Made by a program: the position numbers and the translations under genes. A stretch of DNA of 64,000 bases from Coxiella sp. RIFCSPHIGHO2_12_FULL_42_15. GTDB taxonomy: Bacteria > Pseudomonadota > Gammaproteobacteria > Coxiellales > Coxiellaceae. How positions within the stretch are numbered: the stretch's first letter is position 1; each line of letters starts with the position of its first letter. The notes under the pieces were generated by a model. The model was given only the letters and a program-made list of their open reading frames with translations, was not told the origin of the DNA and did no database searches. The stretch is taken from NCBI GenBank assembly GCA_001797285.1, contig MGOZ01000050.1, positions 894 to 64,893 of the forward strand, given 5' to 3'. Positions 8,128 to 40,642 of the stretch are shown one piece after another.

Positions 8128-8943
8128 ATGATCGACATAGAACACACCAAGCAACGCTGTAATCGCTACCGCCACGAAATTCTGGATATTTCGCAACAAG
8201 TGGGCGCCCTTCACATCGCGCCGGCATTTTCCTGTTTGGAAATGACCGACGTTATTTACCATCATTTAATGCGTCGTGATCAAAACAATTGTTTTATCGA
8301 TACGTTTTTGATGTCGAAAGGCCACGGTTGTATGAGCCAATACGTTATGTTACGCGAATTTGGTCTTTTATCCGATGAAGATCTCCTTAATTATTGTCGT
8401 CCAAATGGTCGTTTAGGTGCGCATCCAGATTATGGATTACCCGGAATTGCTGCTTCAACCGGTTCGTTGGGTCACGGTTTAGGAATCGCAACGGGTATTG
8501 CGCTTGCAAATCGTTTGCAAAAACAAGATAGCCATACTTATGTGATCTTGTCCGATGGAGAGCTGCAGGAAGGTTCGACGTGGGAAGCGATCCTCATGGC
8601 GGCCAATTTAAAACTGGAAAATCTCACGGTTTTTCTCGATTTAAATGATTTTTCGGGTCTTGCACGCATGAGCACGGATCACCCGGCTTTTTATCCGGTG
8701 GTTGATAAATTGAGTGCTTTTGGTTGGAGTGTGCAATGCGTTGATGGTCATGAAAGTGAAGCCATTTATATGGCCGCTAAAACAATGCAAAGCGGTAAAC
8801 CGCATTTTGTGGTTTGCCATACCGTGAAAGGTAAAGGCATTTCGTACATGGAGCATGTGCCGATTTGGCATTATCGTTCGCCCAACCCAGAAGAATATCA
8901 ACAAGCAAAACGAGAATTAGCTGAAGCATTAATATCATGTTGA
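8128..8943 (+). CDS. Transketolase, N-terminal (TPP-binding) subunit
   Basis: 271-aa protein equal to the N-terminal half of a transketolase. It contains the TPP/Mg motif (LSDGELQEGSTWEA ... LNDF), the GHG and STGSLGHGLGIATG segments, and HTVKGKGISYME near the end. Split transketolases work as a complex with a separate pyrimidine-binding subunit, here the next gene. They transfer two-carbon ketol units between ketose and aldose phosphates. Because housekeeping transketolase is normally a single chain encoded elsewhere, this pair is probably dedicated to the locus, for example to sedoheptulose-7-phosphate supply or to carbon-chain extension of a sugar. An AAGGAC ribosome site precedes the ATG. 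Confidence 0.9.
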   Translation: MIDIEHTKQRCNRYRHEILDISQQVGALHIAPAFSCLEMTDVIYHHLMRRDQNNCFIDTFLMSKGHGCMSQYVMLREFGLLSDEDLLNYCRPNGRLGAHPDYGLPGIAASTGSLGHGLGIATGIALANRLQKQDSHTYVILSDGELQEGSTWEAILMAANLKLENLTVFLDLNDFSGLARMSTDHPAFYPVVDKLSAFGWSVQCVDGHESEAIYMAAKTMQSGKPHFVVCHTVKGKGISYMEHVPIWHYRSPNPEEYQQAKRELAEALISC

Positions 8944-8998
8944 AACGTCGCTTCCGAGCCGCGGCCATGAAGGAGCGGTATACAAAGAGATCTATAAA

Positions 8999-9919
8999 AT
9001 GAGAAATAAATTCGCAAAAGTATTTTATGAATTGGGAAAAAAAGATCCACGTCTGGCCATTGTGGTCGCTGACATTTCACCCGCGGGTTCGATTGCGCAA
9101 TTTCGTGAAGAATTTCCTGAGCGATTTATCAATACAGGTGTTTCAGAGCAATCCATGATTGGTATTGCTGCGGGTATGGCATTGCGTGGCATGCGACCTT
9201 TTGCTTACACCATTGCCACATTTGCTTTGTACCGACCGTTTGAATTTGTGCGCGATGATATTGCGTATCAAAATTTACCGGTTACGGTTGTCGGTGTGGG
9301 TGGTGGCGTTACGTATTCCACCCTGGGGGGGACTCATCATGCGATGGAAGACATTGCCGTTGCGAGTGCGATTCCGGGGATGCAGGTATTGGTGCCCTGC
9401 GATCCGATGGAAACGCAGCAGATAACTGAGTGGTGTGCGCTTAAAAATGAAAAACCAACCTACTTGCGTTTAGGAAAAGCAGGAGAGCCAGATTTAACGA
9501 CGCAGGCGATTGACCCTTTTATTCCTGGAAAAATACGTCGTATTTGCCAGGGTAAAGACGTCTGCATTATTTCGTATGGCCCTACCGTTAAAATGGCGCT
9601 GGATTTGGCGCAACACATTAAAAAAACCCATCAATGGTCATCCACCGTTGTTTCTTGTCATTCCATCAAACCGCTGGATGTCGATGGAACTCGTGAATTG
9701 TTACATCAGCATCGCAGAGTCATTGTCATTGAAGAGCATGTTCCTCACGGTGGTTTGGGTTCAAGAATCAAAGAAATTGCATGGGACATGCGTGCTAACT
9801 GTGAATTGACGTGTTACGCTTTGCAAGATAAATTTATCCACCATTATGGGAGCCATGAGCAATTACTGGATGCACATGGGCTCAATATGGCTAAAATTCA
9901 TGAAGGAGTATTTGCATGA
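8999..9919 (+). CDS. Transketolase, C-terminal (pyrimidine-binding) subunit
   Basis: 306-aa partner of the preceding subunit. It has the pyrimidine-binding domain (FINTGVSEQSMIGIAAGMAL, with the Glu that activates TPP, then FATF-type TIATFALYRPFE) and a C-terminal transketolase domain (DVCIISYGPTVKMALDLA ... VIVIEEHVPHGGLGSRI). Sequence resembles the 1-deoxyxylulose-5-phosphate synthase/transketolase superfamily, and together with the upstream gene it covers one full enzyme. A 55-bp gap separates the two. A G7 run at about 9325-9331 lies in the coding sequence. The stop overlaps the next start (ATGA). Confidence 0.9.
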   Translation: MRNKFAKVFYELGKKDPRLAIVVADISPAGSIAQFREEFPERFINTGVSEQSMIGIAAGMALRGMRPFAYTIATFALYRPFEFVRDDIAYQNLPVTVVGVGGGVTYSTLGGTHHAMEDIAVASAIPGMQVLVPCDPMETQQITEWCALKNEKPTYLRLGKAGEPDLTTQAIDPFIPGKIRRICQGKDVCIISYGPTVKMALDLAQHIKKTHQWSSTVVSCHSIKPLDVDGTRELLHQHRRVIVIEEHVPHGGLGSRIKEIAWDMRANCELTCYALQDKFIHHYGSHEQLLDAHGLNMAKIHEGVFA

Positions 9920-15359: not shown

Positions 15360-16988
15360 ATGATTCTGTTAGGACTTCATGGCGGTATCACATTACGTCA
15401 GCACGAGCCTGCCGCGGCATTGGTGATTAATGGCAAAGTGGCGGCGCTTTGTGAAGAAGAGCGCTATCTCCGCATTAAATCGGCTTATGGTTACATGCCT
15501 TATTATTCCATCAAAGCGTGTTTGCAAATGGCGAATATTCGATGGGAAGATGTTGATCTTGTGGTGATGCCGGGGGAAACCTATGTGGGATTTGATGATC
15601 ATATTCGTCAGTATTTGCAGCACAACTTTGGTAGCTGTCCCAAAATTCAATTAATTCATCATCAATTAGCGCATTTGGCGGTTGCATTTTATAGCTCTGG
15701 ATTAGATGAATCTTTAGTATTGTCGTTAGACGCCTCTGGTGATGGGGATTGCTCGATGCTGGGATATGCCACGCGCAAAGACGGTATTAAAGTTTTGGAA
15801 AAAATACCGGCGGATAAATCCCTCGGGTATTTTTACACCATGATGACGTATTACTTAGGTTTTGCCGATGGTGATGAATATAAAGTCATGGGATTGGCTC
15901 CTTATGGAAAACCGTCGATTGATTTCAGTGCAGTCATTCGTCCCTCTATAGAGGGGTGGGAATTCGATACTTCGTTTTTACGGCAAAAACCCGCGCCACA
16001 TTCGCCATTTGAACATACCTATTCGGAAAAATTAACAAAACTTTTGGGACAACCCAGTCGGTTGCCAAGTGGTGAAATGACCGATTATTATCGGAATGTT
16101 GCGCGTTCAACGCAATATATGTTTGAACAATGCCTATTATCACTGATTAAAAAACTTCAGAGAATGGCGCCTGCAAGTCGTCATTTATGTTATGCCGGAG
16201 GTACTGCATTAAATTGTTCAGCCAATAAAGCCTTATTGTATTCTAACGATTTTGATGTTATTCATGTTCCAGCCATGTCTTCGGATCGTGGTTTAGCGTT
16301 AGGTTGCGCTTATTATGGTGCGGTGCAAATGGGAGATTCTCCATGGCAATTGTCTTCTGCTTATTTAGGGTCGAGTTATTCGAATGATGGGATCCGCAAG
16401 GAATTAGAATCCAATGGTATTCATTTTCAAGAAGTGGATAATCCAACGGAAATAGGAGCACAATTACTTGCAGAAGGAAAGTTATTAGGTTGGTATCAAG
16501 GCCGATCTGAAGCGGGAGCGCGTGCATTAGGTAATCGCTCTATTTTAGCGTCGTGTCGGAATAAAAATACTCGCGACAAGGTGAATAAAAAAATTAAATA
16601 TCGTGAAGAGTTTCGGCCGTTTGCTCCGGCGGTAATGTTTGATAAAAGCGAGCAATATTTTCAAACGCGAGGTCGAGATTTACCGAACATGTGTTTTACG
16701 GTGGATGTCAAATCCGACAAAGCAGATTTAATTCCTGCTGTTGTGCATCAAGATCAAACGGCACGTGCGCAAACCGTAAAAAGTTCTGACAATGAATTAT
16801 TTTATGACTTATTGAAAAACTATTATCAACGCACTGATTGTGGCGTGATATTGAATACCAGTTTTAATCTAAAAGGCCAGCCTATTGTGGAATCCCCTCG
16901 TGATGCGCTAATGACTTTTTATGGATGTGGCTTGGATGCGCTCATTATGGGGAATTTCGTGGTGAAAAAGCCAGTTGTAACAGTTTAA
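15360..16988 (+). CDS. NodU/CmcH-type carbamoyltransferase
   Basis: 542-aa O-carbamoyltransferase. The N-terminal Kae1/ASKHA-like domain (LLGLHGGITLRQHEPAAALV, HHQLAHLAVAFYSSG with metal-binding His residues, and LSLDASGDGD) is followed by a C-terminal YrdC-like domain (GWYQGRSEAGARALGNRSILA, FRPFAPAV, NTSFNLKGQPIVESP). The family transfers a carbamoyl group from carbamoyl phosphate through a carbamoyl-adenylate to a sugar hydroxyl, as in Nod factors and some O-antigens. Length and motifs are complete. It lies between the acetyltransferase and the ABC exporter, so it probably decorates the exported glycan. Confidence 0.92.
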   Translation: MILLGLHGGITLRQHEPAAALVINGKVAALCEEERYLRIKSAYGYMPYYSIKACLQMANIRWEDVDLVVMPGETYVGFDDHIRQYLQHNFGSCPKIQLIHHQLAHLAVAFYSSGLDESLVLSLDASGDGDCSMLGYATRKDGIKVLEKIPADKSLGYFYTMMTYYLGFADGDEYKVMGLAPYGKPSIDFSAVIRPSIEGWEFDTSFLRQKPAPHSPFEHTYSEKLTKLLGQPSRLPSGEMTDYYRNVARSTQYMFEQCLLSLIKKLQRMAPASRHLCYAGGTALNCSANKALLYSNDFDVIHVPAMSSDRGLALGCAYYGAVQMGDSPWQLSSAYLGSSYSNDGIRKELESNGIHFQEVDNPTEIGAQLLAEGKLLGWYQGRSEAGARALGNRSILASCRNKNTRDKVNKKIKYREEFRPFAPAVMFDKSEQYFQTRGRDLPNMCFTVDVKSDKADLIPAVVHQDQTARAQTVKSSDNELFYDLLKNYYQRTDCGVILNTSFNLKGQPIVESPRDALMTFYGCGLDALIMGNFVVKKPVVTV

Positions 16989-16996
16989 GGAAAAAG

Positions 16997-17866
16997 ATGG
17001 ACCCAGCAGTGTTAGAAGCGGTAGAAGAAGAGGCGATAGCCCCAGCGCGTACACGTTTTTTTGCAAAACCGTCTGATTTTGCAGACACTGTTGCTGATTA
17101 CTTTAGTAGTTTTAAAAGTTGGCGAATGTGGAATTATATGGCGCTTGCCGATATACGACGCCGTTATCGTCGAACGCTCATAGGTCCATTTTGGACAACG
17201 TTAAGTTTAGCAATTTTTATTTCCAGTATGGGGGTGCTTTTTTCTATTTTGTGGAAGACAGATATAAAATCTTTTTTGCCGTATTTTGCTTCAGGTTTCA
17301 TATCGTGGACTTTTGTTTCTTGCATTATTACTGAAGGATGCCAGACTTTTATTAATATGGAGGGCTTGCTAAAGCAAATATCGTTTCCATTTGCGGCTTG
17401 TGCGTGGTTGGTAGTAACAAGAAATTTTTGGATTTTTTTGCATCAAATCACGATTTATATTGTGATTGCTTTTATTTATCATGTACCGCTAACAAGATAT
17501 ACCTTTTTAGCTTTTCCAGGATTGATCTTGCTTTTCCTAACAGGAAGTTGGGTGACGATGCTATTAGGGAGTTTATGCGCTCGTTTTCGCGATATGCACC
17601 AGGTTGTTATTAGCCTTTTGCAAATTTCCATGTTTGTTACGCCTATTTTCTGGCCAGAAGCGCAATTGGGCACTGGATTTAAAGCGTATTTAATTGTGAA
17701 TAGTAATCCGCTGTACCATTATGTCGTGGTGGTGCGGCAACCATTGATGGGGCAATCACCCCATTTAATTAGTTGGATTATTGTCAGTGTGATGACGGTG
17801 CTAGGTTGGTTAATAACCATGTTGGTTATGTCAAAGAATCATAGAAAATTGATTTTCTGGTTGTAA
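16997..17866 (+). CDS. ABC-2 type polysaccharide exporter permease (Wzm-like)
   Basis: 289 aa from the ATG at 16997, which has AAGGAAAAA just upstream; an ATG at 16925 lies inside the carbamoyltransferase gene without a ribosome site. The cytoplasmic N-terminus contains the family pattern LADIRRRYRRTLIGPFWTTLSLAIFI, then about six membrane spans and the GSLCARFRDMHQVVISLLQISMFVTPIFW segment typical of Wzm/KpsM/TagG permeases. With the ATPase at 18048 it should move a lipid-linked glycan across the inner membrane. A 168-bp R1 MITE separates the two subunit genes. Confidence 0.9.
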   Translation: MDPAVLEAVEEEAIAPARTRFFAKPSDFADTVADYFSSFKSWRMWNYMALADIRRRYRRTLIGPFWTTLSLAIFISSMGVLFSILWKTDIKSFLPYFASGFISWTFVSCIITEGCQTFINMEGLLKQISFPFAACAWLVVTRNFWIFLHQITIYIVIAFIYHVPLTRYTFLAFPGLILLFLTGSWVTMLLGSLCARFRDMHQVVISLLQISMFVTPIFWPEAQLGTGFKAYLIVNSNPLYHYVVVVRQPLMGQSPHLISWIIVSVMTVLGWLITMLVMSKNHRKLIFWL

Positions 17867-18047: not shown

Positions 18048-18818
18048 ATGAAAGTGGTCATGACAACCTTTGTAGAAGTTAATCAGTTAACATTGGATAT
18101 TCCGGTATTTAATGTGAGTCGCAGTTTCCGGTCCTCATTGCTTAATCGATTTGTTGGCGGAAGGATAGAGAGAGATGTCAAGTCGAATGAAGTTATGGTT
18201 AGAGCGTTGAATTCTATTAATTTCCGTTTGGAAGAAGGAGATCGTTTGGCATTGGTTGGGCATAATGGTGCAGGAAAAACAACTCTATTACGCGTTTTGG
18301 CACAAATTTACAAGCCGGTATTTGGTGTTTATCGATTTTCGGGTCGCATTACTTCCCTTTTTAATATGAGTATTGGTTTGGACTTGGATGATTCTGGGAT
18401 AGAAAATATTTATACGATTGGCATGTATTTAGGAATGTCAAAAAAAGAAATTGATCTTAAAAAAAATGAAGTTATTGAATTTAGTGAGTTAGGCGATTTT
18501 ATTCACTTGCCTGTACGGATTTATTCGGCAGGCATGCAAACGCGATTAAGTTTTGCCATTGCAACAGCAATGGAACCAGACATTTTACTTTTAGATGAAG
18601 GCATTGGTGCTGGCGATGCAAATTTTGCAGATAAAGCTAAAAAAAGACTCGCAGCATTTTATGCTAAAACAAGCGTTCTCGTTATTGCTTCTCATTCAAA
18701 TGATTTAATCACAAAGTTATGTAATAAGGCGCTGTTGTTAGATCATGGTAGTCAAGTGGCACTAGGTCACATTGATGAGATACTAGAACTGTACGAAACC
18801 AGTCAGTGTAAATTGTAA
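18048..18818 (+). CDS. ABC transporter ATPase for polysaccharide export (Wzt-like, short form)
   Basis: 256-aa nucleotide-binding subunit. Walker A is GHNGAGKTT (about residues 70-78), the signature is YSAGMQTRLSFA, and Walker B is PDILLLDEGIGAGD, followed by the ASHSNDLI switch His. It lacks the C-terminal carbohydrate-binding domain found in some Wzt proteins, so it is closer to KpsT/TagH. The start may be 18048 or the in-frame ATG at 18060. GTTAGGG lies just after the R1 element, so the MITE may form part of its leader. Confidence 0.9.
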   Translation: MKVVMTTFVEVNQLTLDIPVFNVSRSFRSSLLNRFVGGRIERDVKSNEVMVRALNSINFRLEEGDRLALVGHNGAGKTTLLRVLAQIYKPVFGVYRFSGRITSLFNMSIGLDLDDSGIENIYTIGMYLGMSKKEIDLKKNEVIEFSELGDFIHLPVRIYSAGMQTRLSFAIATAMEPDILLLDEGIGAGDANFADKAKKRLAAFYAKTSVLVIASHSNDLITKLCNKALLLDHGSQVALGHIDEILELYETSQCKL

Positions 18819-18877: not shown

Positions 18878-20962
18878 ATGAGCAAGCCATGGCGGTTATT
18901 GAAGTCTTTCAATTTGAATATGGGATGGCAGGGTTGGACCGTTTTTTTATTTGCGACGTTGGTCATGTTCTATGTGCAGAGAGTTTATCCTTTTTTTCAT
19001 CCCGGCGGTGACTCAGATGGTAATATTTTTATTGCGCGTCACATCTTGCATCTGCCAGGAGGCGCTTTTATCTCTTCTCATGGGCCTGGAATGGCTTTAT
19101 TTTTAATTCTCACTGGTGTTGTCCCTTTTAATACGTGGAAACTCATGATGGCGGCGTATGCGGCAATGAGTGTGGCGATGCCCTGTTTGCTTTATAGTAC
19201 GCTGCGTTTATACAGTAAGTACGGAGCTTTTTTGGCTGCCTTGATCATTATAATGAGTGGAATTCCCTATGCATATTCACGCGTAGATTCCTATGACCAT
19301 CTTTTTCTTTTTTTGGAATTTTTCACTTTTTTTCTGATCGCACGGTATTTTTATGATGCTCGTCAATATGCAAAATATCTTTATTTTATCGTTATTTTAT
19401 TTGCAACAATGAACCTCGTTAAACCGTTAGCGGCATTTCTATTGATTGTTTTTTTTTCGATTGTTTTTTTTCTTTCCGAAGTAACTAAAAAAAATTTAGT
19501 TAAAGCAATGTGCTGTTATTTTGCCATTATGGGGCTGTGGGTGGTCTTTGACCGTGGTTTTAGTGTAAGCAGTTACCCGGAATGGAATCAACCTGACAAT
19601 TTGCTTCAAAGACGTTTTGCGGAAACTTATTATCAGCCCTCACATTATTTATTTACCCCCCAGTTACTAGGAAAACCTGTCGTATCTCAGCAAGATGGCC
19701 CGGCTTCTAACGCGTTGTATCAGGCCATCATAGAGTATGTCCATTTACACAAAAACGATTTGGTTTCCTCTTTGCGGGTTGCTGATATTCCTAAACAGTT
19801 ACCCTATTCTTTATTTGGGAAATATGCTCATGATCCAGAGAGTTTAGTCAAGACAATTTTTCAATTTCCTAATGCTTTTTATTTTAATTTTATTCGTAAG
19901 GTAGTGAAAGAAAAGTGGGGAAGATCGGGCGATGGTTTACTTTATTTAGTTGCAGTTGAACATGGCAATACTGGATTTTTAGGAATGGTGAATTATTTAT
20001 GGCATTATCCTAGCAAATTGTTAACGGGGCCAGTCGTGTCGATGGGATGGCGAAATTTATTGGCTGTATTTTCATTTGCGCCTTTACGGGAACAAGCAGA
20101 TTTTAATATTTTAGTGCGTCCACAGTCCGTATTACAATCCTTAGTGCGACCCGATTTTGGGCCTTATTCTGGCGAATTTTATGCGGCATTGCGTTTTTTT
20201 GCGAGAGAAATTCCTGTCAGTTGGCAAAACACCAATTATGTGTTTAATCGATTTTCAGATCCCGAAATTTTGTATAATGCCATTCTAAATTTCAAAGCCG
20301 AACCTGTGTTGGCTGCATCAGATCTTAAAAATAAGATCCAAAATGGAGATATGACTATTGTTGAAGGTTGGTATTATACTAATTTTTTAGGAATATACGG
20401 GCCTGTTTTAAGCAGTGAGTTGTTTAGGCGGGTCGTTGGAGAGATTATTTCAGTTTATCCGTCTGCTTTATTTTTATTTGCAGATAATTTTTTAAAGGAA
20501 GCTTTTTCATTTAGAAAAGTTGATATTTCTTCATCGCTGTTAAATTACGACTATCGCTATTTTTCAGAAACATCACCGATTAATTATAGTTTGAGAGTCA
20601 ATGATTTTACGAATTTAGGGCCTCAATTATCGGCACAGTTGCAGCATGAAATTTATCCAGATAAGCACTCGCGATTTATTGCAGCTGCATATTCCTTTAT
20701 TCATTATGTATCACCTTGGTTTTCTTGGGCAGCGTTATTTTTCTTTAGTTTTGCCATACTCGGTCGAGCGCGTTATTTTGCATTATTTTTAATTGGTGCT
20801 TATGGGTATTTTGTTGCTGTGATGACAGTATTCGGAAATTTTGGTAGTGATCGATATAGCGATATGTTTTTGTGGATTCCATTAATGATTGTAATGCTTG
20901 GATTTAGTAGTATATTCCCAGTCTGGAAAATACTTGCTCAGCATTTTAATTTTAAAAAATAA
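18878..20962 (+). CDS. Large multi-spanning membrane protein, probable GT-C glycosyltransferase (paralogue 1)
   Basis: 694-aa integral membrane protein with about ten predicted spans and a large extracytoplasmic region (about 220-600). Immediately after the first span lies HPGGDSDGN (Asp45, Asp47); an acidic motif in this first external loop is a hallmark of GT-C enzymes that use polyprenyl-phosphate sugars. Other shared blocks are YSRVDSYDHLFLFLEF and FGNFGSDRYSDMF near the C-terminus. Two paralogues are encoded at 20973 and 26643. T9 and T8 runs occur near 19449 and 19463. The start lacks a clear ribosome site; an AAGGAG at 18832 suggests initiation could be slightly upstream. Glycosyltransferase activity is inferred. 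Confidence 0.78.
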   Translation: MSKPWRLLKSFNLNMGWQGWTVFLFATLVMFYVQRVYPFFHPGGDSDGNIFIARHILHLPGGAFISSHGPGMALFLILTGVVPFNTWKLMMAAYAAMSVAMPCLLYSTLRLYSKYGAFLAALIIIMSGIPYAYSRVDSYDHLFLFLEFFTFFLIARYFYDARQYAKYLYFIVILFATMNLVKPLAAFLLIVFFSIVFFLSEVTKKNLVKAMCCYFAIMGLWVVFDRGFSVSSYPEWNQPDNLLQRRFAETYYQPSHYLFTPQLLGKPVVSQQDGPASNALYQAIIEYVHLHKNDLVSSLRVADIPKQLPYSLFGKYAHDPESLVKTIFQFPNAFYFNFIRKVVKEKWGRSGDGLLYLVAVEHGNTGFLGMVNYLWHYPSKLLTGPVVSMGWRNLLAVFSFAPLREQADFNILVRPQSVLQSLVRPDFGPYSGEFYAALRFFAREIPVSWQNTNYVFNRFSDPEILYNAILNFKAEPVLAASDLKNKIQNGDMTIVEGWYYTNFLGIYGPVLSSELFRRVVGEIISVYPSALFLFADNFLKEAFSFRKVDISSSLLNYDYRYFSETSPINYSLRVNDFTNLGPQLSAQLQHEIYPDKHSRFIAAAYSFIHYVSPWFSWAALFFFSFAILGRARYFALFLIGAYGYFVAVMTVFGNFGSDRYSDMFLWIPLMIVMLGFSSIFPVWKILAQHFNFKK

Positions 20963-20972
20963 GAGAGTAATA

Positions 20973-23030
20973 ATGATTGCAAGAGCATGGATGTGGTTTG
21001 AAAATTTTAATAAGTCAACGACATTGCTGATGCGACGTAGTGTTGTGATGGAATGGCAATTCAAGCTTGTATTTCTTCTCGCCATTTTATTCATGATTTA
21101 TGTTCAACTGTACTATCCCTTTTTTGATCCGGGTGGTGACTCCGATACAGATTTTTTTATGGCGCGCTACCTATTAGATAGACCTGGGGGGTTATATATT
21201 TCTTCTCATACTCCCGGAATGGCATTATTTTTGATTTTTTCCGGCGTTATTTTTTTTGAAACATGGAAAATCATGATGGTACTTTATGCAGCAATGAGCG
21301 TTGCGATCCCGTGCATGATTTATCTTACTGTGCGTAAATATAGTCGTATGGGTGCATTGTTGATAAGCATTATTGTAATCGGAGGCAGTGTTCCTTTTGC
21401 TTATTCTCGAGTTGAGTCTTATGACCATCTTTTTTTATTTTTAGAATTTTTATCTATTTTACTCGTCGGCTTGTATTTTTCTAATCCTAGTAAATATAAG
21501 CGTATACCTTATGTAATCGCATTGGTTATGTTTGGATTAACTTTAGTAAAACCCGTTGCTGCTTTTTTGTATTGGATATTTCTCATAAGCTCTTTTTTTC
21601 TTAAAGCTATAAACCGCAAAAACATATTATTGGCTACCTTAAGTTACCTTGCTCTTATGGGTGTTTGGGTTGTTTTAGATAGAAATGTAGGCAATGGTAA
21701 TTATCCCGAATGGTATAGACCTCAGAATTTGGATCAGAGACGTTTTGCTGAAATTTATTTTAAGGCACATCATTTTAATTTTATTTCACAACTCGAAGGT
21801 AAGCCTGTCGTTAAACTATCTGACGGTTTAGCATCAAAAGCTTTATATCAAGCGACGCAAGAATATGTAGAAAAGCACGAAAAAGAATGGGCAAAGCCCG
21901 ATAAACCATTTAACAATATGCCGTATACTTTTTTTGGGAAATTTGCGGGCCATCCAGATCAACTGGTCCAGGAAATTTTTAAAAAACCGAATGCATTATA
22001 TTTTAATTTTATCGTTTCTGCAGCGCATGAAAAATGGGCGGATCGGGGTGACGCTTTATTATATTCTGTTGCCAGTGAACAGTATGCAACAGGATTATTA
22101 GGTTTGGCTCATTATTTTTCACATAACGTGATGAAGCTGATTACAGGCCCTGTCGTTTCTTTGGGATGGCGTAATCTTATGGCGGTGTATTCATTTGCGC
22201 CGACGAGAAAAAATGCTGACTGGAGTGTTATCGTAGATCTTAACAGTGTCCCTTCCATGATGCTAAATCCAAATGCGGGGCTGTATTCAAAAGAGTTTTT
22301 TGCTACCGTTAAATTTTTTATGAATGATCTTCCAGAATATTGGGAGCACACGAATTCATTTTTTGATAAGTTTCATGGTCAACCCGATAAGTTATTTAAT
22401 ACTACATTCAGTCCAATGGGGGATGTGACTCTTGTAGAGGGTTGGTACTATACACTATTCATGTGCATTTATGGGCCTGTTTTTTCTAATGAATTATTTA
22501 CGCATGTTACATTGGAAACGATGCAGCAATATCCGATGACATTGTTATTTTTTGTGGATAATTTTCTCAAGGAAGCATTGTCTTTCACTAAAATAGCGGT
22601 GAGTGTCGTTCCAAACTGGTATCAATATTTTTTGAATCATTCTGCGATTAACTATTCTTTACGAACAAACTTGGAAGAGCATATTGGTCCCAATTTATAT
22701 CATGAATTACAGCCTGAAATTTACCCTAGTATACATTCACACTTAATTGCCACTTTATACGGATGGATGCATTCTATTGCACCTATTTTTTCGGCTATGG
22801 CAATATTTTTGCTTGGTATTGCTGCCATTGGTCGTGCAAGGCCATTGGCCATTTTTCTTTTGCTTGTTTATTTAAATTTTGTTGTTGTTTATGCTACATT
22901 TGGCAATTTTGGCTGCGACCGTTATAGTGATATTTTTATTTTAATACCACCCATGATTATTGTGATTGCGTTAGGGACAGTAAAAGAAGTGTGGAAAATG
23001 GTTTCCAAAAATACAAGTTTATTGCGGTGA
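20973..23030 (+). CDS. Large multi-spanning membrane protein, probable GT-C glycosyltransferase (paralogue 2)
   Basis: 685 aa from the ATG at 20973 (preceded by AAGAGAG; an earlier in-frame Met lies inside the upstream gene). Same architecture as the preceding gene: first span, then DPGGDSDTDFF (Asp56, Asp58), a set of N-terminal spans containing YSRVESYDHLFLFLEF, a long extracytoplasmic segment containing GPVVSLGWRNL and VEGWYYTLFM, and C-terminal spans ending with FGNFGCDRYSDIF. It is more similar to the 26643 product than to the 18878 product in the first 60 residues. It follows its paralogue by 10 bp. Confidence 0.78.
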   Translation: MIARAWMWFENFNKSTTLLMRRSVVMEWQFKLVFLLAILFMIYVQLYYPFFDPGGDSDTDFFMARYLLDRPGGLYISSHTPGMALFLIFSGVIFFETWKIMMVLYAAMSVAIPCMIYLTVRKYSRMGALLISIIVIGGSVPFAYSRVESYDHLFLFLEFLSILLVGLYFSNPSKYKRIPYVIALVMFGLTLVKPVAAFLYWIFLISSFFLKAINRKNILLATLSYLALMGVWVVLDRNVGNGNYPEWYRPQNLDQRRFAEIYFKAHHFNFISQLEGKPVVKLSDGLASKALYQATQEYVEKHEKEWAKPDKPFNNMPYTFFGKFAGHPDQLVQEIFKKPNALYFNFIVSAAHEKWADRGDALLYSVASEQYATGLLGLAHYFSHNVMKLITGPVVSLGWRNLMAVYSFAPTRKNADWSVIVDLNSVPSMMLNPNAGLYSKEFFATVKFFMNDLPEYWEHTNSFFDKFHGQPDKLFNTTFSPMGDVTLVEGWYYTLFMCIYGPVFSNELFTHVTLETMQQYPMTLLFFVDNFLKEALSFTKIAVSVVPNWYQYFLNHSAINYSLRTNLEEHIGPNLYHELQPEIYPSIHSHLIATLYGWMHSIAPIFSAMAIFLLGIAAIGRARPLAIFLLLVYLNFVVVYATFGNFGCDRYSDIFILIPPMIIVIALGTVKEVWKMVSKNTSLLR

Positions 23031-23038
23031 TTCATTTT

Positions 23039-23995
23039 ATGAGGCGAAATTTTTATTTTATTGTTAAAGCGGGGTTTACAGCAGTGCTGCTGCTTTTTGT
23101 CTTTTCAAAGATTGATTTTTCAACATTTCATTCCTACTTAAAAACAGTGAGCACTTTTATGCTTTTGCTGGCATTGATACTGATGTTTTTACAATGTTTG
23201 TTAGGGGCATTCAAATGGCACTTGATTTTACGTTTTGTAGGAATTCAGCAATCATTTGGAATTCCTCTGCGAGTTTTTTGGGTGGGAATGTTTTTTAATT
23301 CGTTTTTTCCTGCAGGAATTGCGGGCGATAGTGTTCGTGTTTGGATGGTGCAGCGCTTAGGTCATTCGTTATCTAAAGTGGTCGATTCCGTATTACTGGA
23401 TCGACTAATAGGATTATTTGTCATGGTATTGGCCAGTTTAATTTCTATTTTTGTACTAAAAAAAGTGGTAACTAATGCATTTTTAATTCATTTGTTTGAA
23501 TTGTTTACTTTGTTGGGATTAATAGGTTTTAGTGTTTTAAGTTTTTTGCATCGATTACCCGTAAAATGGACGCATTTTCGTATTTTACGTGCAATGTATC
23601 AATTATCGCTCGATACTTACATGCTATGCACATCACCGGCTAAAACAGGGCTTATTAGTGTAGTGGCATTTATTTCAATCAGCTGGCAGGTTTTATTAGT
23701 TTATGTATTAGCCCAAGCGTTTCATTTTCAAATTAGCTTTTTGCACTGTTGGGTGTTTGTGCCCCCCGTAGTTTTATTAACAACTCTACCCATCTCTGTA
23801 GGAGGTTGGGGAATACGAGAGGGAGCGATGGTGACTTTATCTGGAATGGTTGGTGTTTCTTCATCGGCTGCTTTATCATTATCTATTTTGCTGGGGTTGA
23901 TTACCGTATTGATTAGTCTTCCAGGAGGAATTGTTTGGATGCTATGGCGGAATCATACAGCTGCTGAAATGGTTCAGACAATAGCGTCAACTTAG
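23039..23995 (+). CDS. Flippase-like integral membrane protein (UPF0104/LPG-synthase TM family)
   Basis: 318-aa membrane protein with about seven or eight spans. The pattern LLGAFKWHLILRFVGIQ, then WVGMFFNSFFPAGIAGDSVRVWMV and LLDRLIGLFVMV, matches the membrane domain of lysylphosphatidylglycerol synthases and AglD-type proteins (family UPF0104). The end has LPISVGGWGIREGAMV, also conserved. In glycosylation loci such proteins are candidates for moving lipid-linked sugars across the membrane. I use the ATG at 23039 (GGTGA upstream) because earlier starts lie inside the previous gene. Confidence 0.82.
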   Translation: MRRNFYFIVKAGFTAVLLLFVFSKIDFSTFHSYLKTVSTFMLLLALILMFLQCLLGAFKWHLILRFVGIQQSFGIPLRVFWVGMFFNSFFPAGIAGDSVRVWMVQRLGHSLSKVVDSVLLDRLIGLFVMVLASLISIFVLKKVVTNAFLIHLFELFTLLGLIGFSVLSFLHRLPVKWTHFRILRAMYQLSLDTYMLCTSPAKTGLISVVAFISISWQVLLVYVLAQAFHFQISFLHCWVFVPPVVLLTTLPISVGGWGIREGAMVTLSGMVGVSSSAALSLSILLGLITVLISLPGGIVWMLWRNHTAAEMVQTIAST

Positions 23996-24022
23996 AAATA
24001 TCTAGGCTAAAAGGGATTTATT

Positions 24023-24943
24023 ATGGCACTAATGGGAAGTCAAAAATATCCACTTAAACCTGAATATTGTGATCACATTATAAATTCCGTGAAATTAACG
24101 GGACATTGTGTTTTAGAGCAGGTATGGGATGTTACTTTTCTTGATAAGGTATTTTCTGTTGCAGATCGTTTTTTTGAAGCTAAGGATCAGGTTTGGTATT
24201 TAGGAAAAATGCCTTCTGGTGAGCTGAATCAATATTTCGGTTCGTTTTACGATGTGTTTGATAATCATTTAAATGATGATTTTTTTGATTGTATTGCAAC
24301 CTCGGCATTGCCGATGTTGTTCACTGTTATGCTTCAGGGTCGATTTGCGATTATGAAGAATGAACGTGCGGTGCGTAGGGTAGATCCCAAATTTCCCGTT
24401 CGGCTTTCTGGTTTTCATGTGGATGGGCAATTAAGTAAACTTTCTTCTCAGGGTTTTCATACACAAGATGAATATACAGTGTGGAGTCCTTTGGTCGATG
24501 TGATGGATGATTGTACGCCACGGCTAATGTTGATTGATCGCAATGATCATGCTAGTTTTTTAGCACTTTATGATAGTATCGTGATTGATCTTGGTGCTAA
24601 AAAGAATATTCCTATTCTTGGGCTCTCGAAATTAAATCTCGACTTGGAAAAAAAATTTTTAAAAGAAATTTTGGTGGCGAGGGAAAATGCTTATGCAGCA
24701 GTTGTTGAAAAGCAGAAATGCTATGCTCCGAAGTTGAAAAAAGGAGACGCGATTATTTTTGATAAAAATATATGGCACTCTTCTTTTATCCCTCCTTTCT
24801 TTGAAAATAAAAGATTGAGTTTAGATTTTAGAATTGTAGGTGATCATACACCTACAACAGACGAGGGGTGGGATGGGAGATTTTTTTCTTACAAAAATCG
24901 ATTTTTATCGAAAAAGAAATTAATTATGGAAAAATATCGTTAA
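24023..24943 (+). CDS. Fe(II)/2-oxoglutarate dioxygenase, PhyH-like (paralogue 1)
   Basis: 306-aa cytoplasmic protein with a jelly-roll dioxygenase pattern. The metal triad is visible: FHVDGQ (His132, Asp134) and IWHSS (His252), with Arg264 or Arg270 positioned to bind 2-oxoglutarate. A strongly conserved block before the triad, KNERAVRRVDPKFPVRLSG, is shared with the products at 24956 and 28690. PhyH-type enzymes hydroxylate small molecules or lipids, and an unrelated Fe/2OG enzyme (KdoO) is known to hydroxylate a lipopolysaccharide sugar, so a glycan or lipid-carrier substrate is possible. It is preceded by AAAAGGGA. Confidence 0.8.
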   Translation: MALMGSQKYPLKPEYCDHIINSVKLTGHCVLEQVWDVTFLDKVFSVADRFFEAKDQVWYLGKMPSGELNQYFGSFYDVFDNHLNDDFFDCIATSALPMLFTVMLQGRFAIMKNERAVRRVDPKFPVRLSGFHVDGQLSKLSSQGFHTQDEYTVWSPLVDVMDDCTPRLMLIDRNDHASFLALYDSIVIDLGAKKNIPILGLSKLNLDLEKKFLKEILVARENAYAAVVEKQKCYAPKLKKGDAIIFDKNIWHSSFIPPFFENKRLSLDFRIVGDHTPTTDEGWDGRFFSYKNRFLSKKKLIMEKYR

Positions 24944-24955
24944 CAGGAGGAAGAT

Positions 24956-25873
24956 ATGCCTTTTTTTGAAAGTGAACGATACGTTCTGAGGAAAGAAAAT
25001 ATCGATAATATTATTCAAGCAATAAAAAATGTGGGGCACTGCGTCATTGAAAAGACATGGGATATCAATTTGGTTGATTACTTATATCGCATTTCTGATC
25101 AGTATTTCAATTGCAAAGATGAAGCCTGGTTTTCTGGAAAAATGCCCGATGGTGAACTGAATCAGTATTTTGGCGCTTTCTATGATGTTTTTGATGCAGT
25201 GAGTAATGACAAATTTTTTAACACTATTAAAGATTCTTGCTTACCACTTTTATTTAACAAAATGCTAAATGGTAAATTTGTCATTATGCAGAATGAAAGA
25301 TCGGCGCGCAGAGTTGACCCTAAATTTCCAGTAAGAATTTCTGGTTTTCATGTAGATGGTCAATTAAGCCGATTATCTTCGCAAGGCTACCATACGCAAG
25401 ATGAATTTACGATGTGGAGTCCCCTACGTGATGCGGTTGACGAAAGAACACCGCGACTTTTACTTTTGCATCAATCTGAAAATGATAATTATCTTAAAAT
25501 CAATTATGATCAAGTTACGGATATTGGAGATAAGCAGAATATACCGATACTTGCTCTTTCTAAATTGAATTTAGCACTTGAAAAAAATCACTCCGCTGAA
25601 ATTATTACGAAGCGGGATAAAGCTTACCGTGTTTTATTTGAAAAACTTAAGTGCTATGCGCCAAAATTGCAGAAAGGGGATGTCATCCTTTATGATAAGT
25701 CAGTATGGCATTCGACTTATGCACCGGAAAATTTTAGCAACAAAATGATAAGCTTGGATTTTCGTATTGTAGGCGATCATCCTCCTATTTCTGATGCTGG
25801 ATGGGGAGGAAAAGTATTCAATATTAAAAAAACATTTTTAGGTCGAAATCGCGTGGTTGTAGAAAATTATTGA
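24956..25873 (+). CDS. Fe(II)/2-oxoglutarate dioxygenase, PhyH-like (paralogue 2)
   Basis: 305-aa tandem paralogue of the preceding gene, 12 bp downstream with a strong AGGAGGAA ribosome site. His132, Asp134 and His252 occupy identical positions, and the QNERSARRVDPKFPVRISG block is kept. The sequence differs mainly in the first 60 residues and in the loop after the second His, consistent with different substrates. Both copies end in a short basic tail with the residues EKY or ENY. All metal ligands are intact, so I expect an active enzyme. Confidence 0.8.
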   Translation: MPFFESERYVLRKENIDNIIQAIKNVGHCVIEKTWDINLVDYLYRISDQYFNCKDEAWFSGKMPDGELNQYFGAFYDVFDAVSNDKFFNTIKDSCLPLLFNKMLNGKFVIMQNERSARRVDPKFPVRISGFHVDGQLSRLSSQGYHTQDEFTMWSPLRDAVDERTPRLLLLHQSENDNYLKINYDQVTDIGDKQNIPILALSKLNLALEKNHSAEIITKRDKAYRVLFEKLKCYAPKLQKGDVILYDKSVWHSTYAPENFSNKMISLDFRIVGDHPPISDAGWGGKVFNIKKTFLGRNRVVVENY

Positions 25874-25895
25874 TATATTTTAGAAAGAGAGATCT

Positions 25896-26627
25896 ATGAA
25901 TCCTGAAATCAGTATTTTTGTTTCTTGCTACAATGAACAAGAAACGATTGTTGTTACGGTGGAGACATTAATTTTTGCACTATTGAAACTTGAGATTTCA
26001 TGGGAGATTTTGATTATTGATGATTGCTCAATGGACAATTCAGTTGCAGTTATTCAACAATTTATGCATGAAAATTCTGCCGCAGCTGTTTATTTGCACA
26101 AAAATGAGGTTAATCAAGGTCTTGGCGCGAATGTCTTTACGGCTGCACGATTGGCTAAAGGACGCTATTTTTGGTGTGTGGGTGGTGACAATCCAGTGCC
26201 GAAAGAAGCGTGTTATGCATTGATTTCCCAGATTGGAAAAGCCGACATTATTGTTCCCAACGTTATGTATTACGAAAATCGCACATTGTTTCGGCGTATA
26301 TTATCTTGGACCTATGCTTTTTTAGTACGTATCGTTTCAGGTAGTTCAATCCGTTATTTTAATGGCTCTTCTATTTATTTGAGGGAACAATTTGTTGCAC
26401 AAATGGAAAAAATCAGTGGCTTTACTTATTCTGCGGAACTTATTATTTATTTACTTGATCAAGGCTGCTCATATCTAGAGGTCCCTGTTATTTATACTGA
26501 TCGTACCTGTGGAAAATCGACGGCTGTTTCGATACTAAATTTTATAGATGTCATAGGCTTTTTAAGCCGGTTGCTTCGAAGACGTTGGAATTTAATGCGA
26601 GCACGAGCCGCGAAAATTCGTAGCTAA
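25896..26627 (+). CDS. Family 2 glycosyltransferase, DPM1-like
   Basis: 243-aa GT-A fold transferase: ISIFVSCYNEQETI, then ILIIDDCSMDNS (UDP/GDP-binding Asp pair), AKGRYFWCVGGDNPVPKE with the metal-binding acidic residue, and a C-terminal RFGKST-like TCGKSTAV. It has no C-terminal transmembrane pair, so it matches the short DPM1-type polyprenyl-phosphate sugar synthases as well as ordinary GT2 enzymes. Placed among three GT-C-like proteins and a flippase-like protein, it is a good candidate for making the lipid-linked sugar donor. This role is inferred. Confidence 0.85.
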   Translation: MNPEISIFVSCYNEQETIVVTVETLIFALLKLEISWEILIIDDCSMDNSVAVIQQFMHENSAAAVYLHKNEVNQGLGANVFTAARLAKGRYFWCVGGDNPVPKEACYALISQIGKADIIVPNVMYYENRTLFRRILSWTYAFLVRIVSGSSIRYFNGSSIYLREQFVAQMEKISGFTYSAELIIYLLDQGCSYLEVPVIYTDRTCGKSTAVSILNFIDVIGFLSRLLRRRWNLMRARAAKIRS

Positions 26628-26642
26628 AATGGAGTATTTTGA

Positions 26643-28724
26643 ATGTATGCGGCAGAACCGATAAGTGACTTTGGTAAATCGACTATACGTTTGGCACAAA
26701 AGATTTTTATATTAGAGTGGCAGTTTAAATTGGTATTTTTAAGTGCTGTACTTATTATGGCTTATATGCAATTATTTTATCCCTTCTATGATCCTGGGGG
26801 AGATTCCGATACCGATTTTTTTATGGCACGTTATCTTTTACATTTACCTGGCGGACTTTATATTTCTTCACATGCACCTGGGATGGCCATATTCCTCATA
26901 CTATCTGGCGTCATTTTTCTCAATAGTTGGAAGCCGCTCATTTTTTTATATGCCGTTATGAGTGTTGCAATGCCTTGTTTTATTTATGCGGTGATCCGTC
27001 CTTATCATCGAACATGGGCCATGATCATTACACTTATCGTTATTATAGGGCTAGTGCCTTTTGCTTATTCACGATTTGAAAGTTATGATCATCTGTTTCT
27101 TTTTTTAGAATTTTTTTCCATTTATCTTTCGGGTTTGTTTTTTCGAAATTATCTAAAATATAAATATTTGGTATACATCATTGCAATAGTTATGTTTTCA
27201 ATGACGCTTGTTAAACCCATCGCTGCTCTTTTATATTGGATATTTTTGATCTGTGCGATTTTTCTTCGTGGTGTCGATCGATTATTTTTGTTTAAAGCAA
27301 CATTTCTTTATTTAGCGCTAATGGGAATATGGGTGGCTTTTGATTGGAGTGCCGGTAATGGTGGGTTTCCTGAATGGTTTCCTCCCCAAAATTACGATCA
27401 AAGGCGTTTTGCCACAACCTATTATCAACCCAATTATTTTCTTTTCAATAAAACGTTACAGCGCAGTATCCCAGTTATTTCTGAACAAGATGGTCCTGCA
27501 TCAAAGGCCTTGTATCAAGCGATATCTGAATATGCGAGAAATCAGGTAGACCAATGGAGGGCACCGATGGATCCTTATAGTCGTTTACCTTATACTCTTT
27601 TTGGAAAATACGCTTCCGATCCTGATCAATTAGTGGAAGAGATATTTAGAAAACCCAATTCTTTATATTTTAATTTCATTGTGGAGTCTGCAAAATTAAA
27701 GTGGGGAGAAGATGGTGGAAATGCCGTGTTATGGAATGTGGCTGCAGAACACAACAATACGGGTTTTTTGGGGTTAGTGAAATATTTAATGTATCATTCG
27801 ATGAAAATAATAACGGGTCCAGTGGTTTCTACAGGTTGGAGAAATTTCCTTGCAACTTATACCTACGCGCCACTAAGAAAACATCCCATTAGAATAGGCT
27901 CTCCACCGCCTTGGAATTTATTAGTTGATTTGGATAATCTCCCAATAATTCTGAATCCAGATCTAGGGCCTTATAGCAAAGAATTTTATGCAGCTATTCA
28001 TTTTTTTATTAATGATCTTCCAGGATATTGGCAACATTCAAATTCAATTTTTGAAAAATTTAGTAACCGGCCAGCTGAGCTTTATCAATATATTCTTAAC
28101 CCTGAAAGTGCAGGTGACATTTCATTGATTGAAGGGTGGTATTACGTTTTATTTGTTAATATTTATGGCCCAGATTTGGCAAGCCAGCTTTTTACAAGAA
28201 TCGCGTTTGAAGCATTTTCAAAATATCCAAAATCAATTTTTCTTTTTATTGATAATTTTTTTCTTGAAGTATTTCAATTTCAAAAATACGATATATCAAA
28301 AGTGGTAAGCTACTATAATTATCTTATTTTCAATACTGAAATAAACTATCAGGAAAGACCGAATGGTGCCAATATCAATACTATTGGGTCGGAGCTTTTT
28401 AATCAACTGACACCCATAATTTATAGTGATACCTATTCAAGAATTATTACATTATTTTGGGGGGCTATGCATGCTTATGCCCCTTTATTTGTTGTTGTTA
28501 TGATGTTTCTTTGGATTGTTGCTTTCACGGGATCTGGGCGATTTTTTGTTTTGTTTCTTACAGGAGCATATTTATATTTTATTTTAGTATTCTCAGTTTT
28601 TGGAAATTTTGGTTCGGATCGTTACAGCGACATCTTCATTCTTATTCCTTTGATAATCATTGGGTTGGGATTTAGTTCATTCTTCAAGATTAAGAATGCG
28701 ATTTCACCCTGTAATTTTCAGTAA
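26643..28724 (+). CDS. Large multi-spanning membrane protein, probable GT-C glycosyltransferase (paralogue 3)
   Basis: 693-aa third member of the membrane family, with the same order of blocks: first span, DPGGDSDTDFF (Asp54, Asp56), YSRFESYDHLFLFLEF, a long extracytoplasmic region with GPVVSTGWRNF and IEGWYYVLFV, and C-terminal FGNFGSDRYSDIF. It lies 15 bp after the GT2 gene. Its last 35 bp overlap the 3' end of the convergent dioxygenase gene. Three diverged copies within 10 kb suggest that each handles a different acceptor or donor sugar. Confidence 0.78.
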   Translation: MYAAEPISDFGKSTIRLAQKIFILEWQFKLVFLSAVLIMAYMQLFYPFYDPGGDSDTDFFMARYLLHLPGGLYISSHAPGMAIFLILSGVIFLNSWKPLIFLYAVMSVAMPCFIYAVIRPYHRTWAMIITLIVIIGLVPFAYSRFESYDHLFLFLEFFSIYLSGLFFRNYLKYKYLVYIIAIVMFSMTLVKPIAALLYWIFLICAIFLRGVDRLFLFKATFLYLALMGIWVAFDWSAGNGGFPEWFPPQNYDQRRFATTYYQPNYFLFNKTLQRSIPVISEQDGPASKALYQAISEYARNQVDQWRAPMDPYSRLPYTLFGKYASDPDQLVEEIFRKPNSLYFNFIVESAKLKWGEDGGNAVLWNVAAEHNNTGFLGLVKYLMYHSMKIITGPVVSTGWRNFLATYTYAPLRKHPIRIGSPPPWNLLVDLDNLPIILNPDLGPYSKEFYAAIHFFINDLPGYWQHSNSIFEKFSNRPAELYQYILNPESAGDISLIEGWYYVLFVNIYGPDLASQLFTRIAFEAFSKYPKSIFLFIDNFFLEVFQFQKYDISKVVSYYNYLIFNTEINYQERPNGANINTIGSELFNQLTPIIYSDTYSRIITLFWGAMHAYAPLFVVVMMFLWIVAFTGSGRFFVLFLTGAYLYFILVFSVFGNFGSDRYSDIFILIPLIIIGLGFSSFFKIKNAISPCNFQ

Positions 28725-29628
28725 AAAAAATGTCTTTTCTAAACAAAAAATGTTTTTTTGAGCGAAAAAATTTCCCATCAAAACGCATATCTTCTGTAGG
28801 GATATGATCTCCTACTATTCTGTAATCAAGGCTTATTCTTTTTTTGGAAAAATTTTCGGGTATAAAAGAAGAATGCCAGATATCTCTATCAAATATGATG
28901 CAATCGCCCAACTTGATTTTTGGAGCATAGCATAAGAATCGATCGGTAATTTGACTATAAATTTCTTTTCTTTTTATCAATAGTTCAGGCTGATATTTTT
29001 TTTCAAGATCGATATTTAATGTAGAAAGTACGTGTATTCGAACTTTTACTTGATTTGGTAGAGTTATTGCATTATTCATATAGAAATCTTTAAAATTTTC
29101 AGTATCTTTTTTATCAATAAGCATTAATCGTGGAGTTTTATCATCTACTACATTGACTAGAGGAGTCCAAATCGTGAATTCCCTTTTTGAATGGAGGCCT
29201 CTACAAGCAAGATCTTTAAGCTGCCCATCCGTGTGAAATGCTGAAAAGCGAAGTGGAAAGATGGGATCTACTCTGCGGAGCACCCTTTCATTACGCATTA
29301 AAGCAAAATCACCATTAAACAATTTTTTAAAAAGATAGGGAAATTTGCTTTGAAGGATACATGTATAAAACTCCTCATCCATAACATGATCTTCAATTGA
29401 ATAAAAAGCACCGAAATATTGTGGTATTTCAGTTGTTGATAAATTGTTTTTTTGAATCGCCTTATCCTTTAATTTAAATAGAGAATTACCATGTTGGCAT
29501 AATTCTTTTAGAAAAAGTTGATCCCATACTTTTTCAATTACACAAAGGCCTGTAGATTCAATTGACTCAACGATCTGGTTGATCGTTTTTGGCTTAATTC
29601 GAAAACGACAGCTTTCTAGTAATGGCAT
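28690..29628 (-). CDS. Fe(II)/2-oxoglutarate dioxygenase, PhyH-like (paralogue 3)
   Basis: 312 aa from the ATG at 29628 (AAGGAATG upstream). Same subfamily as the 24023 and 24956 products: MRNERVLRRVDPIFPLRFSA precedes FHTDGQ (His132, Asp134), and IWHSSFIPENF supplies the distal His. KRISLDYRIVGDHIPTED matches the C-terminal block with the 2-oxoglutarate-binding Arg. It is encoded on the opposite strand, as the last gene of a minus-strand operon with the isomerase and transaldolase. Its stop overlaps the convergent membrane-protein gene by 35 bp. It has diverged most from the other two. Confidence 0.8.
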   Translation of the reverse strand: MPLLESCRFRIKPKTINQIVESIESTGLCVIEKVWDQLFLKELCQHGNSLFKLKDKAIQKNNLSTTEIPQYFGAFYSIEDHVMDEEFYTCILQSKFPYLFKKLFNGDFALMRNERVLRRVDPIFPLRFSAFHTDGQLKDLACRGLHSKREFTIWTPLVNVVDDKTPRLMLIDKKDTENFKDFYMNNAITLPNQVKVRIHVLSTLNIDLEKKYQPELLIKRKEIYSQITDRFLCYAPKIKLGDCIIFDRDIWHSSFIPENFSKKRISLDYRIVGDHIPTEDMRFDGKFFRSKKHFLFRKDIFFTENYRVKSHS

Positions 29629-29667
29629 AGACAATCATTCCTTGATCCACTAAAATTAAACTTGATT

Positions 29668-29696: not shown

Positions 29697-30281
29697 TTAC
29701 CATTTCGTACTTTTCATTTGCAATTTTGGATGAGAGACTAAACAATGCCAAACCAGGGCTTGAAATGCTTCGGTATGCGGCGTTACATTTTTTTCGTCAA
29801 CGGTTGGTACGATAACCACTTCGTTGGCTACTTTAGCAGTGTAGCCGCCATTGCGGCCGACAATACCAAAGATTTTGGCTTTGCGTTGTTGTGCTTCTTT
29901 TAATGCGTGAATGATATTCACACTTACCTTTTTTTCATCGCAACCACCACCCACTGAAAATACCATAATGGCGTCTTTTTCGTTAAGTTTGCTGACTTTC
30001 AGCCATTCGCTGAAAACGGTTTCCCAGCCTTCGTCATTTGTTCGTGCGGTAAGTTCTGACACATTGTCAGTGGGTGCGTAAGTTTCAATACCGCATAGCT
30101 TTCGAAAATCATTGACCGCATGTGATGCATTTGCAGCACTTCCCCCGGCACCAAGAATAAATAATCGTCCGTCATTTTCGCGAAGTTTTGCAAGTTCAGT
30201 AGCGAGATTTTCAACAGCATTACTATTAATTTTATTGCAAATATCAATAGATTGGGAGAAGTACGTTTTACTGTGTGACAT
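29697..30281 (-). CDS. SIS-domain sugar-phosphate isomerase, GmhA-like
   Basis: 194 aa from the ATG at 30281 (AAGGAAAA upstream). The SIS domain has LFILGAGGSAANASHAVNDF, matching the GmhA phosphate-binding loop (GNGGSAADAQH in the classical enzyme), then TARTNDEGWETVF and FSVGGGCDEKKVS. GmhA converts sedoheptulose-7-phosphate to D-glycero-D-manno-heptose-7-phosphate. Here His of the classical H-to-E catalytic pair appears conserved near the C-terminus (TPHTEAFQALVWH). It overlaps the upstream gene by 14 nt and is co-transcribed with a transaldolase, which supports a sedoheptulose or related substrate. Confidence 0.82.
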   Translation of the reverse strand: MSHSKTYFSQSIDICNKINSNAVENLATELAKLRENDGRLFILGAGGSAANASHAVNDFRKLCGIETYAPTDNVSELTARTNDEGWETVFSEWLKVSKLNEKDAIMVFSVGGGCDEKKVSVNIIHALKEAQQRKAKIFGIVGRNGGYTAKVANEVVIVPTVDEKNVTPHTEAFQALVWHCLVSHPKLQMKSTKW

Positions 30282-31497: not shown

Positions 31498-31524
31498 CAG
31501 CAATCTTTAACAACAAAATAAAAT

Positions 31525-40639: not shown

Positions 40640-40642
40640 GAT

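Follow-up and report, generated by a model that had tools for sequence, protein, structure and literature searches.

Three-component systems are the source of much of the side-chain diversity in bacterial surface sugars, and Gtr is a known periplasmic glycosylation module of this kind. Known accessory enzymes, such as epimerases, alter which sugar gets added. Periplasmic glycosylation by three components after ABC export has been described for Klebsiella gmlABC (PMC5403891) and for Citrobacter O1/O2 (PMC11127046). In Klebsiella pneumoniae, gmlABC serves galactan-III side-chain galactosylation; the module adjoins the rfb operon and the polysaccharide is ABC-exported (PMC5403891). In Citrobacter youngae O1/O2 the genes for a PRPP-type donor synthase, a MATE flippase and the GT-C protein GT136, which has an extra extracytoplasmic domain, lie downstream of the backbone genes, and epimerases alter the donor sugar; the authors of that work also point to systems with multiple GT-Cs (PMC11127046).

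The stretch of DNA analysed here, 64,000 nucleotides of a Coxiella genome and referred to below as the window, has a block of genes that can be set beside both (Table 1). Like gmlABC it follows the ABC transporter genes wzm and wzt, here of galactan-export type, and like the Citrobacter locus it has candidates for lipid-donor synthase, flippase and GT-C downstream of backbone genes, a GT-C with an additional soluble part and accessory enzymes that may act on the donor sugar. Unlike gmlABC, with its one GT-C, the block has three GT-C-like paralogues (GTC1, GTC2 and GTC3), a PF03706 protein as the flippase candidate and 2-oxoglutarate (2OG) oxygenases within it. In contrast to Citrobacter the donor synthase candidate is a GT2 protein, the flippase candidate is PF03706, the GT-C-like proteins belong to an unassigned subfamily and the accessory enzymes are oxygenases instead of epimerases.

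Table 1. Features of the locus, with positions in the window and the basis of each assignment
Feature	Position	Strand	Basis
wzm-like ABC permease	16925..17866	+	PF01061 37.5 bits; NF050109 galactan export permease E 5e-71, below equivalog cut-off
wzt-like ABC ATPase	18048..18818	+	NF050108 galactan export ATPase E 2e-79, below equivalog cut-off
GTC1, GT-C-like membrane glycosyltransferase, 694 aa	18878..20962	+	Alignment of the trio; hhalign to PMT_2 with controls
GTC2, GT-C-like membrane glycosyltransferase, 685 aa from its ATG	20973..23030	+	As GTC1
Flippase-like protein (UPF0104 / LPG_synthase_TM)	23039..23995	+	PF03706 150.9 bits; TIGR00374 77 bits, above cut-off
DO1, PhyH-like Fe(II)/2OG oxygenase, 306 aa	24023..24943	+	H132, D134, H252; profile match to TIGR04324-like oxygenases
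DO2, PhyH-like Fe(II)/2OG oxygenase, 305 aa	24956..25873	+	H132, D134, H252; profile comparison
GT2, candidate polyprenyl-phosphate sugar synthase	25896..26627	+	PF00535 73.8 bits; ArnC best PDB match
GTC3, GT-C-like membrane glycosyltransferase, 693 aa	26643..28724	+	As GTC1
DO3, PhyH-like Fe(II)/2OG oxygenase, 312 aa	28690..29628	-	H132, D134, H252 from its ATG; TIGR04324 5.9e-5, below cut-off
DO4, fourth PhyH-like Fe(II)/2OG oxygenase, 334 aa	34766..35770	+	TIGR04324 3.3e-9, below cut-off; FHQD at 145, LH at 233
Split transketolase pair (N part 8128-8943, C part 8999-9919)	8128..9919	+	PF00456, PF02779, PF02780

By the ORF calls all nine genes from wzm to GTC3 (wzm, wzt, GTC1, GTC2, flippase-like gene, DO1, DO2, GT2 and GTC3) share one direction, with intergenic gaps of 8-59 nt between wzt and GTC3; the likeliest start of the flippase-like ORF is the ATG 8 nt past GTC2. 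DO3 converges on GTC3 from the opposite strand, and the ends of the two genes overlap by 35 nt. The surrounding polysaccharide cluster encodes sugar epimerases, a PfkB/cytidylyltransferase fusion, a UDP-sugar dehydrogenase-type protein and the split transketolase, together with a SPASM radical SAM protein, a carbamoyltransferase, an SIS isomerase, a transaldolase, a DegT aminotransferase and an FkbM methyltransferase. GC content is 35.7% across 18878-29634 and 39-43% in the other measured parts of the window, in keeping with horizontal acquisition of the block; the small genomes of the organism's family may point to an intracellular lineage. Flanking the module are two paralogues (12176-13639, plus strand, and 30268-31503, minus strand) that are 33% identical over 331 aa and match no Pfam or NCBIfam family at the thresholds used; they may be unrecognised glycosyltransferases.

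The three membrane paralogues of 685-694 aa with a [DH]PGGDSD motif, described in the original prediction, are real. Alignment gives pairwise identities of 49-53% over the full length, and HPGGDSD (GTC1) or DPGGDSD (GTC2 and GTC3) comes directly after the first hydrophobic segment, with P42, G43, G44, D45, S46 and D47 (GTC1 numbering) invariant. Hydropathy points to about seven membrane segments in the first ~230 residues, some 370 aa of soluble protein and about three C-terminal segments. None of the trio has a Pfam, NCBIfam or PDB sequence match, and PF13231 (PMT_2) gives nothing at E <= 1, its gathering threshold not being reached. The alignment of the trio was nevertheless recognizably similar to an alignment of 21 PMT_2 proteins taken from this genome and its relatives (hhalign probability 95.4, score 71.2, profile columns 35-231), compared with a score of 30.0 for the reversed alignment, a mean of 19.9 (sd 4.2, maximum 29.6) for 60 class-preserving shuffles that keep the hydrophobic pattern, and 13-15 for the flippase-like protein and the Wzm permease. 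Singly, GTC1, GTC2 and GTC3 score 53-56 against PMT_2, and the first Asp of GGDSD (D45) aligns under the Asp of the PMT_2 DE motif. These comparisons support a GT-C relationship for the N-terminal module of about 200 residues, and it is for that part that the proposed GT-C-like nature holds. The trio is like PMT_2/ArnT-type GT-Cs in its N-terminal membrane module and in having an acidic motif after helix 1, and unlike them in lying below Pfam detection and in having the long soluble segment with three helices C-terminal to it; no relative could be detected for this middle part or for the C-terminal helices. AlphaFold models from three-row alignments (pLDDT 43 for GTC1 and 40 for DO1) were too poor for a judgement of fold, and Foldseek with the GTC1 model of that quality returned no match at E <= 0.001.

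On the donor side, the flippase-like (UPF0104) protein and the GT2 are both present as predicted. The former is a clear member of PF03706/TIGR00374, a family that includes other membrane proteins too; the flippases of characterised systems are GtrA (SMR) or MATE proteins, and the PF03706 protein here is a candidate for transport of a lipid-linked sugar. The GT2 had been put forward as the maker of the lipid-linked donor. In favour of this its best PDB match is ArnC (residues 4-208), and PRK10714 ArnC matches over 4-219, most of its length; against it, GGD stands in place of the ArnC DAD and the ArnC-like C-terminal helices are absent, so that a lipid-linked product is a candidate only.

The oxygenases DO1, DO2 and DO3 (305-312 aa) share a single HxD...H register, with His132, Asp134 and His252 in each, and are 43-55% identical in pairs, far above chance. 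Their shared ligand positions had been pointed out for DO1 and DO2, with two ligands only in DO3; the third ligand of DO3 was missed earlier and is seen once its ATG start is used, and DO4, a more distant protein within the same cluster, had been overlooked. DO1-DO3 have no convincing Pfam match. Against TIGR04324 (SpoChoClust_2), DO4 scores 36.7 bits, DO3 22.7 and DO1 14.0, and DO2 does not match; all are below the cut-off of 150 bits. The assignment as Fe/2OG oxygenases is borne out by the metal triad, which is in register with that of PhyH-like proteins, and by comparison of the DO1-DO3 profile with five TIGR04324-like proteins of other genomes, which scores 49.8, where shuffled controls reach at most 22.0, and places HxD on HxD and distal His on distal His. 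By these profiles the three are distantly related to the PhyH-like ‘sporadic carbohydrate cluster’ 2OG oxygenases. They resemble TIGR04324/PhyH proteins in the HxD...H triad, the C-terminal SxDxR region, the surface-sugar context and the presence of a split transketolase in the cluster, and differ in their far lower scores, in the greater length between HxD and the distal His in DO1-DO3 and in being three paralogues plus one. The usual 2OG-binding residue of the PhyH family is an Arg after the distal His. Arg is present at His+12 in DO1, DO3 and DO4, and Met in DO2, which keeps Lys263 (His+11) and Arg270 (His+18); cofactor binding by DO2 may be altered.

Neither the GTC-trio subfamily nor that of DO1-DO3 was found outside this genome in 93 relatives, 369 genomes of the class and 329 of the phylum, nor were relatives found in two scans of genome contigs and two of viral contigs or, with DO2 as query, in plasmids and phages. 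Weak matches to the GTC alignment in three genomes (G096, G616 and G497) are attributable to chance: they are short, and those in G616 and G497 are in stop-containing frames. At the level of superfamilies a link between oxygenases of this type and GT-C paralogues within surface-polysaccharide loci is supported, and it recurs in two other Gammaproteobacteria over distances of 35-43 kb. One contig of G319 has, within ~43 kb, wzm/wzt, two PhyH proteins, a split transketolase, a GT2, four GT-C-like paralogues and PF03706, with the GT2, GT-C-like and PF03706 genes ~24-35 kb beyond the part with wzm/wzt, PhyH and transketolase. Its GT-C-like paralogues (629-635 aa) are 19-36% identical; these four diverged proteins (L049:6407-14334) have a PxSD motif after helix 1 and lie beside the GT2 and PF03706 genes. 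In G186 two GT-C-like proteins, PF03706, a PhyH-like protein and wzm/wzt fall within ~35 kb, and the GT-C-like pair (L051:3141-7028) is related to the G319 array. Placement of the G319 and G186 arrays in the same subfamily as the GTC trio is not supported (scores 31 and 39). The oxygenases have a further association. In G266 and G268, TIGR04324 proteins above the cut-off directly adjoin split transketolases that are 34-38% identical to the pair in the window, and in G073 part of a transketolase occurs alongside wzm/wzt and PhyH-like proteins; these observations come from a small set of seven genomes that have strong TIGR04324-like matches. In the window the split transketolase shares a cluster with DO1 but lies ~14 kb away and does not adjoin it.

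The gene order, the GT-C and oxygenase relationships, the ArnC-like GT2, the PF03706 membership and the recurrence in two genomes are computational results; the enzymatic activities, the substrates, the acceptor and an action of the oxygenases on the donor are inferred. The reading that we favour, with somewhat better than even confidence, is of a three-component periplasmic glycosylation module within an ABC-transporter-dependent surface polysaccharide cluster (O-antigen or capsule), with oxygenases acting upstream on the sugar. In the cytoplasm the GT2 would load a sugar onto polyprenyl phosphate. The PF03706 protein would carry the lipid-linked sugar across the membrane, and the three GT-C-type transferases would join the sugar to the exported glycan, with different positions or different acceptors as their probable targets. 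Upstream, also in the cytoplasm, the PhyH-like oxygenases would hydroxylate or oxidise the unusual sugar of the cluster or its nucleotide- or lipid-linked form. The acceptor could instead be protein or lipid A/core, in the manner of PMT or ArnT, with the oxygenases belonging to a neighbouring sugar pathway. The nearest families, PMT_2 and, for the GT2, the lipid A modification protein ArnC, lean that way, and the ~370 aa soluble insert offers a possible binding site for a protein or lipid acceptor; the position of the genes directly after wzm/wzt inside a large polysaccharide cluster, the better fit of three paralogues to several positions of one glycan and the similar arrays in polysaccharide loci of other genomes make it unlikely. 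That the trio are not glycosyltransferases at all, being instead polymerase-, ligase- or acyltransferase-like, is consistent with their having neither a Pfam, NCBIfam or PDB sequence match nor a usable predicted fold. The specificity of the N-terminal PMT_2 match, which outlasts reversed and shuffled controls, and the acidic motif right after the first membrane helix render that very improbable.

Hydroxylation and glycosylation had been proposed to be coupled on the basis of matching numbers, three oxygenases and three membrane proteins, and this argument fails because there are four oxygenases to three GT-C proteins here and two to four in G319; DO3 is, in addition, on the other strand. One-to-one pairing of oxygenase and GT-C protein is rejected as numbers and strands disagree, and direct coupling of the two activities is not supported here. 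Its elaborated form, that each oxygenase makes its own hydroxylated form of one lipid-linked sugar, that each GT-C paralogue transfers one form and that donor hydroxylation so programs the side sugar, is held to be a long shot; were it true, the locus would be an oxygenase-diversified three-component system in which the side sugar outside the membrane is set by hydroxylation of its donor. As canonical relatives abut split transketolases, on the sugar-making side, the oxygenases probably tailor donor sugars in the cytoplasm. Keto-sugar branching has been proposed for split-gene transketolases (PMC12247030), which makes a branched sugar a possible oxygenase substrate; for the cluster here this is a lead only. 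A different view, one that concerns just the oxygenase part of the favoured reading and to which we give an appreciable though minor chance, is that the oxygenases are functionally unconnected with the GT-C module and came to lie beside it through assembly of the cluster, acting on some other product such as a methyl or acyl group of a backbone sugar or, KdoO-like, an inner-core sugar. Hydroxylation of an LPS core sugar by KdoO is a precedent for it (PMC5462993), the canonical relatives are beside split transketolases and not GT-C genes, oxygenase and GT-C counts are unequal across genomes, and neither DO3 nor DO4 is part of the GT-C operon. Weighing the other way, DO1 and DO2 lie between the flippase and GT2 genes in a tight co-directional block, and oxygenases and GT-C paralogues share one locus in both G319 and G186.

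The combination had also been thought not to be a described system. Three-component glycosylation is described (PMC5403891, PMC11127046), and to that extent the claim does not stand; a version with 2OG oxygenases was not found in limited literature searches. What looks new is the GT-C-like trio together with four oxygenases in what otherwise resembles a known kind of side-sugar machinery. The locus provides two protein subfamilies found in no other searched genome, and it suggests where more may be sought in ABC-type polysaccharide loci: where a PhyH-like oxygenase accompanies a split transketolase, and where PF03706 accompanies GT-C arrays. Two further features of the window merit mention. 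A 387 aa protein (11022-12185, plus strand) that matches no family at the thresholds used adjoins the split transketolase and SPASM genes. At 38612-41746, on the minus strand, methylthioribose-1-phosphate isomerase (MtnA) is encoded beside a bifunctional class II aldolase/short-chain dehydrogenase, a pair that perhaps constitutes a salvage route for 5-deoxy sugars.
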